A stretch of 64,000 nt of DNA from Diphasiastrum complanatum (Eukaryota; Streptophyta; Lycopodiopsida; Lycopodiales; Lycopodiaceae): contig CM055102.1 in the NCBI GenBank assembly GCA_029204225.1, positions 29,378,969 to 29,442,968 on the forward strand. Direction: 5' to 3'. Below are positions 40,401-43,400 of this stretch, piece after piece. The stretch's first letter is position 1. Each line of letters opens with the position of its first letter. The notes beneath the pieces are model-generated. The model was not told the DNA's origin, did no database searches, and saw only the letters and a program-made list of their open reading frames with translations. The position numbers and the translations under genes are program-made.

Positions 40401-43400
40401 AGTGTGGCTTGAGGGGGGGTGTTGGAATATCAATCCACACTCTAGAGAGAACTATCAAACAGGGTGGATAGCTCAGTGGTAGAGCATCCCATCCGGTATG
40501 AGGGAGGTCCTGGGTTCGAATCCTAGTCTGTCCATCCATATTATGATTTATGGATTTCTAACATGGTATCAGAGCCAAGTTAGACCTAACAGTTCATGGT
40601 GTCAAAAGCCATGGTTAGGTGGCCCAAGTTGTGGGGCAGGTGACAACTAGGACCCCAACCAAGTGTGGCTTGAGGGGGGGTGTTGGAATATCAATGCACA
40701 CTCTAGAGAGAACTATCAAACAGGGCGGATAGCTCAGTGGTAGAGCATCTCATCCGGTATGAGGGAGGTCCTGGGTTCAAATCCTAGTCTGTCCATCCAT
40801 ATTATGATTTATGGATCTCTAACAAAGCCTAGAAGGCTTCTTAGTTCTACAAGTATCAATGCCTTGTTACTCAAATCATTGAAGCAATAAATTCATACAA
40901 TATCCAAAAAAAATAATGGTCATTGGTAGTTTTATGTCATTAAAGTCTATATGGAGTTTGAAGCTGGAAAGTCTTTATTACTTTGGGGCAATTTGTCTCT
41001 ACAAATTACACCATCATTTGCAACAAATGGCTCAAGAGAAGAAGAACGCTCTACCATATCAACATTCCAATGCAAATTTGTACTTGTAGAAAGACAATGA
41101 TCAAACTTTGCATTCCTTTGCTCTTCTACCTTCAAAGAGGATGAAGTAGAGAGGAGAAAGCATGATGATGAATCCTTTATTCGGTATATCTATAAAAGTG
41201 TTTCCCAAGCACTTTTAGAGGTCTTGCAAAATCTCAAATGATATAAGATAGATCTTGTTACCGATAAAATCTTGATCATCACGTCGATGCCAAACCTCAG
41301 CTTGCAATTCCATGAAGAATAGTTGGTGCCATCCAACATATCTTTGCCCGAACAAGTACGAATTGCTCCCAAATCTCTTGCCATAAGAACTAGCCAAGAA
41401 GATAAATTTTTTCAAACCCTAAATGTGCCCTAAAAGACACAAAAACCAGCAAGTATCAAATTTGAAAAATCAGCATCGGAATGTGTCAAAACCACACATT
41501 AGATGGATGCAGGAACTCGCCCTCCTACAGGCCTTGTGTGCTGAAAATTTCAGCCTGAAATTGCATTACAAACTCAAAAAACCAGCAAGCAAAGAATTAG
41601 GTTAGCCTCCAACAAAGCTTTTTCCGGAACCCTTCTGTCCTGCCAAAAAGTGTGAACAACACACACACGGATAGGGCTGTTGCAAACACCCTACAAATGG
41701 TAATATGCTATCCAATTTTCAGCCTCGGAATGTGATCGGATCATCACAAAAAATTAGCGCCTTCTTCCACATCTGGAAACAAGCAAAAAGAAGCGGATTT
41801 TTACTTTGTAAAATCAGCAAGGGTGCTGATTTTTCAGCCAAATCAGAAGATAAAAATTGCTTGTAGATGGGCGGCCTCCTGCAAAGGAGCAAATCTGAAA
41901 AATAGGGCAGCAGCGGACCAACAGACGTAGGATAAACCTACACGGATGTGGGCAACCTAAAAGCAGCCCCCAAGAAGATAATTAATGGTGCCTTCCTGCA
42001 ACCTGAAAAATCAGCAAACAACCAACTGATTTTTGGTCGCCCAAAATCCTATTATCTTCTTTGATGTGTGGCGCCCTCTTGCAAAATGGAAAAGAGTCAA
42101 AATTGAACGGATCTTCACTCCAAAAAATCAGCGAAGGTGCTGAATTTTTGTGATCCCTAAGTGAAGACGATTGCTTTTGGTAGGGCGCCCTAAATCAAGC
42201 ATAGAAGATCCATGGCTCTGATACCATGTTAGAAATCATAATATATGGATGGACAGACTAGGATTCAAACCCAGGACCTCCCTCATACCGAAATCCGAAT
42301 GGGATGCTCTACCACTGAGCTATCCGCCCTGTTTGATAGTTCTCTCCAGAGTGTGGATTGATATTCCAACGTGTGTAATGAAATACTCACTTCTTGATCT
42401 TTAACTGTGCCTGTTAAATGAAACAGTTCATTAGGCAAAAAAGAAGCAGTATTAAAAGAACATTCACACTCACAATCTTTACTTTTACCTTCAGGGATTT
42501 CTATCATCTGTGCCGCAGGATTCTTTCTCTCTGGACAAAATTTCATCATATGTCCAGGCTTATTACAAATGAAACAGAGATTTTCTTTCTTAGCCTTCAT
42601 CCGGGACATAGATTTTTTCAACTTTTTCTTCGGTTTCTGGGGTTCCGACCCCATTTGATCCAATTCGTCAAAACATTTTGTTGCTCGGTTTGGATCGCAC
42701 GTCTTTACCTTCTTGGATTTCAAAGTGGTTGGAATTTGTTGAAGTTTCTTCCTGGACGCCAGCACCTCGTATGCTTTTTCTATCCGAAAAGCATCCTCGA
42801 GGCTTTGAAGCATATTCCTCCTACATTCGACGAATAGGTTTCAGGCTGAAACCCGAGGTTCAAAGAAGACATTTGGTTCAAAAGAACTTCCATCTGCTGA
42901 TCTCTCATATTATTTCGATGGTTCATGTCATTGAGTGCCATACTCAACTGCTGGCAAATCTGCATATATGATGGTGTAGCCGGATTTGGCATAGCCCGAC
43001 CATCAATTTACAGGTCTGCTTGCTGGACAGGTCAAGAGGAGTACTAAACAGGCTGTAAAATTTCCCAGTACAATCCCCTTGTGGATTGAGAGCAATCCAT
43101 CCCCCAAAAATCACCAAAAAAGGCTATTTTTTTGGCTTTTTTCTGCCTTCTACAAGCTCAGTTCATGGAATTCTTGGCTCTAACTTCAGGGACATCAACT
43201 TTTGCCAAGCTCTATAGGCGTTTTACAGGATCCTACTGTGCAATGTTATGAAAAAACTAGCAAAAATGATGATTTTTGACTATTTTCCAGTTTTTTCTTC
43301 ACCATAAAGTGGAAATTCATGATATGCAACTCTTTCTCACCCACATGCAACTCAATTTATAGGATTATAGCCATCCTAATGATTTGATCTTGCTGGATTT

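Follow-up and report, generated by a model that had tools for sequence, protein, structure and literature searches.

The window, that is, the whole stretch of 64,000 nucleotides of Diphasiastrum complanatum DNA analyzed here, contains one 5.9-kb hybrid insertion (34960-40824), in which a copia body and a copia LTR lie between two arrays of a short element whose LTR and internal region we call HL (Helenus-type LTR) and HI (Helenus internal region). The insertion is flanked on both sides by the 5-bp TSD AAGCC and reads, in linear summary, HL-HI-HL-HI-HL, copia internal region, copia LTR, HI, HL-HI-HL-HI-HL (Table 1); the join of HL to copia and that of the copia LTR to HI both fall at a shared PBS. 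The copia RT is 94% identical, over 43% of the query, to a protein of Diphasiastrum complanatum, which ranks fourth by E-value and first by identity among the matches listed (at least 120). Aligned unit by unit, the left and right arrays give 632 identities and 22 mismatches over 654 aligned positions, plus gaps. The two outer HLs (34960-35090 and 40681-40824) are separated by 6 differences and a 13-nt deletion, and are no closer to each other than other HL pairs are (3-9 mismatches). The first-pass annotation of this DNA recognized the TRIM but missed its place inside the larger insertion.

Table 1. Features of the hybrid insertion and of a second HL-related LTR (window positions, except where LTR positions are given)
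Position	Strand	Feature	Details
34955-34959	.	TSD AAGCC, left copy	direct reading; repeated at 40825-40829
34960-35090	+	outer 5' HL	internally shortened, 131 bp; module 35002-35061
35091-35208	+	HI	with PBS TGGTATCAGAGCC and G-rich PPT
35209-35353	+	HL	module 35252-35324 (46.5 bits)
35354-35470	+	HI	
35471-35614	+	HL	fused directly to copia PBS/5'UTR; module 35513-35585 (43.2 bits)
35615-39537	+	copia internal region	PBS, 5'UTR, gag (Retrotran_gag_2), Pol_BBD, gag_pre-integrs, integrase (rve), RVT_2; reading frames broken
39538-40068	+	copia LTR	531 bp, long CT microsatellite, internal to hybrid
40069-40156	+	HI	without PPT end; fused directly to copia LTR at PBS
40157-40301	+	HL	without 5' TG; module 40200-40272 (41.3 bits)
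40302-40419	+	HI	3' end is PPT TTGAGGGGGGG
40420-40563	+	HL	144 bp; the LTR named in the first-pass annotation
40462-40534	+	tRNA-like module	73 nt; Rfam tRNA model, full length
LTR positions 50-60	+	A box TAGCTCAGTGG	within module 40462-40534
LTR positions 94-104	+	B box GGTTCGAATCC	within module 40462-40534
40564-40680	+	HI	PBS 40564-40576; PPT TTGAGGGGGGG 40670-40680
40681-40824	+	outer 3' HL	module 40723-40795 (49.9 bits)
40825-40829	.	TSD AAGCC, right copy	direct reading
42233-42370	-	diverged HL-related LTR	same PBS; module 42250-42329 (47.5 bits)

The tRNA-like module of the LTR

The 144-bp LTR at 40420-40563 opens with TGTTGG and is bounded by TG...CA (TGTTGGAATATC...CTAACA). Its module scores 47.7 bits against the Rfam tRNA model (gathering threshold 29; E 4.4e-07 for the whole window), and Rfam finds six such modules on the plus strand of the window and one on the minus strand. 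With ARAGORN this LTR yields a tRNA call, and its 5000 dinucleotide shuffles yield none. The module begins at LTR position 43, just behind a CAA at LTR positions 37-39; its acceptor stem (7/7), D arm (4/4) and T arm (5/5) are all paired, and we take its D arm to resemble that of tRNA-Cys. These three arms are fully paired in three of five window modules, with one mismatch in each of the other two. The first-pass annotation had described a 73-nt tRNA-like module inside the LTR with just these arms paired, and both the covariance model and the shuffles bear it out. It had also called the anticodon arm broken: counted on the letters, the stem of this copy does contain one C-A mismatch (4/5 pairs), but the stems of two sister modules (35513-35585 and 40723-40795) pair 5/5, so that "broken" is too strong a word. 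Folding energy is ordinary in the three modules folded (z -0.53, -0.83 and -0.51, with 55, 42 and 54 of 200 shuffles as stable), and the minimum-energy fold of the module at 40462-40534 shows no cloverleaf.

A Helenus-type TRIM family in a clubmoss

Positions 40420-40824 form a unit of 405 bp: two LTRs of 144 bp, with modules of 47.7 and 49.9 bits, enclose an internal region of 117 bp, and PBS TGGTATCAGAGCC adjoins the 5' LTR as the G-rich PPT TTGAGGGGGGG adjoins the 3' LTR. The PBS is presumably the complement of the 3' end of plant initiator tRNA-Met. This unit is the tiny non-coding LTR element, with a tRNA-type module in each LTR, that the first-pass annotation had proposed; its further remark that it knew of no described family with this layout is answered by Helenus, which has the layout and includes a lycophyte family. 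In those parts of Kojima 2024 (PMC10886601) on which our account of Helenus draws, TRIMs with tRNA-like LTRs are given this name and are joined with Cassandra as TRIMp3; they are TRIMs of less than 1000 bp in which the A box (TRGCY..YGG) and B box (GGTTC) are conserved, and their hosts are fungi, animals and one plant, Selaginella moellendorffii. Like them, the present element is short, non-autonomous and non-coding, with an A/B-box tRNA-like sequence in both LTRs, a PBS and a PPT; it has the 5-bp TSDs of the plant and fungal families in a lycophyte, a kind of host already known, and it forms tandem arrays as does family LTR-11_DR (PMC10886601). Compared by length with Helenus-1_SMo, the LTR is 144 bp here and 120 bp there, the internal region 117 bp here and 85 bp there (PMC10886601). 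The element fits the structural definition of the group and is a Helenus (TRIMp3)-type TRIM in the lycophyte Diphasiastrum complanatum.

When the LTR was compared with its own genome (1.74 Gb; best 40 of 1064 candidates scored), at least 41 matches were obtained, and among the matches listed 10 are 100% identical over 143 bases. The junction of PPT and HL start occurs at 759 places genome-wide (up to two mismatches) and the HL|HI junction at 750 (up to three mismatches), with 0 for the backward-pattern control in both cases. At least one tRNA is called by ARAGORN in 28 of the 30 loci given (of 50), L011 and L043 being without a call. Among the six plain Helenus copies with both ends, two (L006 and L048) have an exact adjacent 5-bp TSD, in L044 and L003 the repeat is displaced by one or two extra bases, and in L050 and L054 it has one mismatch; the truncated plain copies L002/L005, L043 and L046/L047 are excluded from this count.

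Because junctions and tRNA calls recur across the genome, the element represents a family rather than a local SINE insertion. The tRNAs called in the window by both ARAGORN and Rfam could speak for a recent SINE insertion at this single locus (the case that the first-pass annotation had named against its own reading) or for a cluster of true tRNA genes, but either is scarcely credible. The module sits within an LTR whose PPT|HL and HL|HI junctions recur at hundreds of places, which rules out the local insertion, and ARAGORN assigns different anticodons (Thr, Pro and Ser) to near-identical copies, on which grounds real tRNA genes are rejected. Membership of the SINE class, whose elements lack LTRs, have an internal promoter at the 5' end and are LINE-mobilised, is rejected on the presence of an LTR pair, a PBS, a PPT and 5-bp TSDs.

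Recurrence, ends and descent of the hybrids

A query spanning the HL|copia junction (best 40 of 1286 candidates scored) gave at least 30 loci: the window, 25 others with an HL fused to the copia 5'UTR, plus 4 copia elements of ordinary structure. With up to three mismatches allowed, there are 38 HL|copia, 26 copiaLTR|HI and 744 ordinary copiaLTR|copia junctions genome-wide, and 0 for each control; these patterns miss some hybrids, the window's own copiaLTR|HI join being absent from the 26. Tracing of 3' ends was extended to 17 hybrids (the window plus 16 of the 25 other loci), of which 12 were resolved at both ends and five (L011, L018, L022, L032 and L033) stayed open-ended. All 12 – nine full hybrids and three shorter derivatives – carry a 5-bp TSD, read by eye from the flanks with a changed terminal base allowed in L010, L017 and L019 and a small deletion in the last LTR allowed in L012. 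Six full hybrids have outer HLs, in the order HL...copia-copiaLTR-HI-...HL (TSDs: window AAGCC, L012 TAAGT, L019 TATCT, L021 GATAC, L023 ATATA, L035 GGGGC), and three have outer copia LTRs, in the order copiaLTR-HI-HL-copia-copiaLTR (L014 AAGCA, L013 GACTG, L017 ATGCC); the three shorter derivatives are without a copia LTR (L010 ATGGT, L025 TAGAT, L026 GTGCT). L013, L017, L019 and L023 are known from their ends, 2-3 kb of the middle lying outside the sequence covered, as do 84 bases of L035.

The similarity of outer LTRs was compared in four of the nine full hybrids (the window, L012/L039, L014/L040 and L021/L041). In L021/L041 the outer HLs are identical at 144/144 positions around ~5 kb of copia, in L012/L039 they show 2 differences plus gaps, and over the part compared the outer copia LTRs of L014/L040 are identical at 336 positions and mismatched at 5. 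Helenus parts are also joined to two more copia families, whose nucleotide sequences resemble none of the other loci compared: one in L045 (another LTR-HI-HL-copia, with Pol_BBD) and one in L001 (HL-copia, with Retrotran_gag_2), each read from a partial locus.

The copia 5' part of 22 hybrid rows and 23 ordinary rows was used to build a tree. Hybrids L026, L030 and L031 and the window copy were left out, ordinary L034 was dropped from the 24 given when its start was not found, and the rows include duplicates of one context (L024/L025/L028 and L027/L029). Hybrid rows interleave with ordinary copia copies. A single clade of all hybrids is rejected (p-AU 4.9e-06), and with it one replicating hybrid lineage, as is a clade of the outer-HL class alone (0.0022); these values come from an alignment that may contain recombinants and in which L038 and L035 are long branches. 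The outer-HL label changes 9 times on the tree against a shuffled mean of 13.9 (as low in 2 of 500 shuffles), and some hybrids are therefore related by descent.

Several further arrangements were observed. On contig C5 (37.75-37.97 Mb and 65.19-65.69 Mb) eight HL|copia junctions have a common variant, GAACTACC, and perhaps reflect local or segmental amplification of one hybrid. At L020 (1707-2243) and on C4 (43.40 Mb and 46.13 Mb), Helenus units stand back to back with each other, or back to back with a copiaLTR|copia junction within ~300 bp, arrangements that may result from strand switching or nested insertion. Mid-size non-autonomous elements in which two HLs enclose the copia 5'UTR, a portion of gag and the PPT end of HI, in that order, occur at L010, L024, L025, L028, L007 and L008 (the 5' HL of L007/L008 lies outside the sequence covered), and amount to the TRIM enlarged by copia sequence. 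On the reverse complement of L012, at offset ~2114, a further LTR-like end (GTTTTCTAACA) has the same PBS (TGGTATCAGAGC) and points to more families that may be able to join there. In the window itself, the internal sequence (40830-42232) beside the minus-strand LTR at 42233-42370 differs from HI and weakly matches the copia 5'UTR region (67.6% identity over 219 nt); this LTR overlaps a 185-aa open frame (42283-42840, minus strand) that has a CCHC-like stretch and no Pfam match. The element is probably another hybrid. Elsewhere in the window, at 22771-29081, lies an LTR retrotransposon whose direct repeats (22771-23130 and 28723-29081) are 99-100% identical and which contains a single 1600-aa open frame (23911-28713); on inspection it looks young and Ty3/gypsy-like.

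Proposed template switching, putative Pol III transcription and a probable copia helper

We think it likely that one explanation covers these structures: a Helenus-type TRIM with a Pol III-type promoter uses copia proteins and forms hybrids by template switching. In the 5' LTR, the module's A and B boxes would serve as a type-2 Pol III promoter, from which transcription would cross the internal region and enter the 3' LTR. Helenus RNA would then be packaged, reverse-transcribed and integrated by the proteins of a Copia that shares its PBS. If Helenus and Copia RNA occupied one particle, cDNA synthesis could continue past the shared PBS onto the other RNA, at its LTR end, yielding HL-copia-copiaLTR-HI-HL or, in reverse, copiaLTR-HI-HL-copia-copiaLTR, each integrated with 5-bp TSDs; a slip of this kind from one Helenus RNA to another would produce tandem HL-HI-HL-HI-HL arrays. 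While the structure of the hybrids is directly observed, the switching is what we infer from it. The borrowing of Copia proteins by Helenus RNA, suggested at first pass, is strongly supported by the structure of these recurrent, TSD-flanked hybrids, short of proof. Sabot and Schulman 2007 (PMC1950507) put forward switching of this kind to explain insertions that combine close relatives, taking TSDs and the likeness of the outer LTRs as its signs. We give even chances to a broader version, in which Helenus is routinely co-packaged with Copia elements of several unrelated families having the same PBS, LTRs and bodies are exchanged both ways as reverse transcription crosses this site, a recombination hub, and the hybrids integrate as units.

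Hybrids might instead form after integration, either by chromosomal recombination or by recombination of a Helenus copy with a one-LTR copia circle, at CTAACATGGTATCAGAGCC. The junctions do fall in a shared stretch of ~16-19 bp, and a copia circle entering an existing Helenus would leave that TSD intact; since the recombined Helenus keeps its own TSD, TSDs alone do not exclude the circle route. In the window some DNA-level duplication is possible, given the unit-by-unit correspondence of the two arrays and an outer HL pair that is not the closest one. However, both polarities occur, each with a TSD beside its own outer LTR (all nine full hybrids), the outer HLs of L021/L041 are identical, and the shared stretch is short for homologous recombination. 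The junction in L014, moreover, lies beyond the shared homology and is not the product of a reciprocal crossover, since a 12-base HL-like tip ends the first copia LTR and yet the locus's own HL|copia junction is intact. Formation after integration thus seems unlikely to us, and template switching remains the preferred reading.

The role of Pol III is a separate matter, for the module may be the relic of a captured SINE or tRNA, in an LTR transcribed by Pol II like that of an ordinary TRIM. The A and B box motifs are present (TAGCTCAGTGG, GGTTCGAATCC), but within the family they are not more conserved than other parts of the LTR. The comparison used 68 HLs (49 different sequences), several of which are duplicates of one context; having been drawn by LTR, HL|copia junction and PPT|LTR-start searches, the set is biased to recent copies. 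Variation in it is 3.1% in the module against 0.6% and 0.9% in the flanking LTR parts, and within the module 1.9% in the A box, 2.8% in the B box and 3.4% in the remainder. Selection on the boxes, judged against the remainder of the LTR, is not clearly evident in these copies; 68% of the changes are C>T or G>A, and decay of this kind can explain the higher variation of the module. In addition, insertions whose outer 5' LTR is an HL can be as long as a copia element, a length that Pol III would hardly manage to transcribe: in the window hybrid, the first run of four or more T is reached ~61 nt after the copia part begins. The element itself lacks such runs, but so do 69% of shuffles, and chance is enough to explain their absence. 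The early run fits hybrids that arise mostly by repeated switching and are not self-propagating, without proving it. Indeed, the hybrids arose more than once and do not have to be transcribed themselves, which takes force from the argument for a relic, as do the full pairing of acceptor, D and T arms in most window modules (with single mismatches in the others), the tRNA calls in 28 of 30 loci and the same boxes kept in published Helenus families, as presented in the parts of PMC10886601 used here. We regard a relic as possible but somewhat doubtful, and retain the Pol III-type promoter as part of the proposed explanation.

The layout of the element is already described, as Helenus; the new part is the hybrid insertions. 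Kojima 2024 (PMC10886601), in the parts drawn on, calls the use of Pol III by Helenus unproven, infers Helenus partners from PBS and internal similarity, with a copia partner proposed for fungal families, and indicates no autonomous partner for Cassandra; the direct joining of Helenus and Copia found here sets these insertions apart from the Helenus described in those parts. As in Cassandra, a small-RNA-derived module that is a putative Pol III promoter lies in the LTRs of a TRIM, and tandem arrays are formed. The module is tRNA-like here and 5S rRNA-like there, an analogy drawn correctly by the first-pass annotation. No 5S rRNA-derived sequence is found in the window, where Rfam at gathering threshold gives tRNA only.

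The hybrids resemble the complexes of Sabot and Schulman 2007 (PMC1950507) in having at least three LTRs and 5-bp TSDs. An internal LTR, two cores and a flanking TSD, as in template-switching complexes, are present in nine of nine full hybrids resolved at both ends, and the near-identical outer LTRs described in that work are found, among the four hybrids compared, in L021/L041 and nearly so in L014/L040. Whereas the parents are alike in those complexes (Angela, Opie and Squiq), here the partners, a TRIM and copia elements, differ in that their LTRs are unrelated, and they have been joined dozens of times at the PBS they share. The order HL-HI-HL-HI-HL within one TSD pair matches the L3I2 type of the tandemly arrayed TRIMs of Gao et al. 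2016 (PMC4717578); tRNA is unmentioned in the main text of that paper, and its section on arrays does not mention a copia insert. Helenus is named in one sentence and in the reference list of PMC12859917, in the part of it consulted. By title and abstract, no other report of a TRIMp3/Helenus layout in plants, Selaginella or Diphasiastrum/Lycopodium appears among the matches listed, a search in which subscription papers were mostly outside the scope.

These results add a clubmoss to a group whose sole plant host listed in the sections of PMC10886601 used here was Selaginella. They bear on the question of how a TRIM with a Pol III promoter acquires an autonomous helper: recurrent TSD-flanked hybrids allow the likely helper to be read from a single genome, and the helpers of other TRIMs may be findable by the same sign, LTR swaps at the PBS. 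They also let one ask whether a Copia particle can package Pol III RNA. If the broader version of the explanation is true, the hybrids would be, as far as the literature was searched, the first direct genomic record of a TRIMp3 helper in plants.
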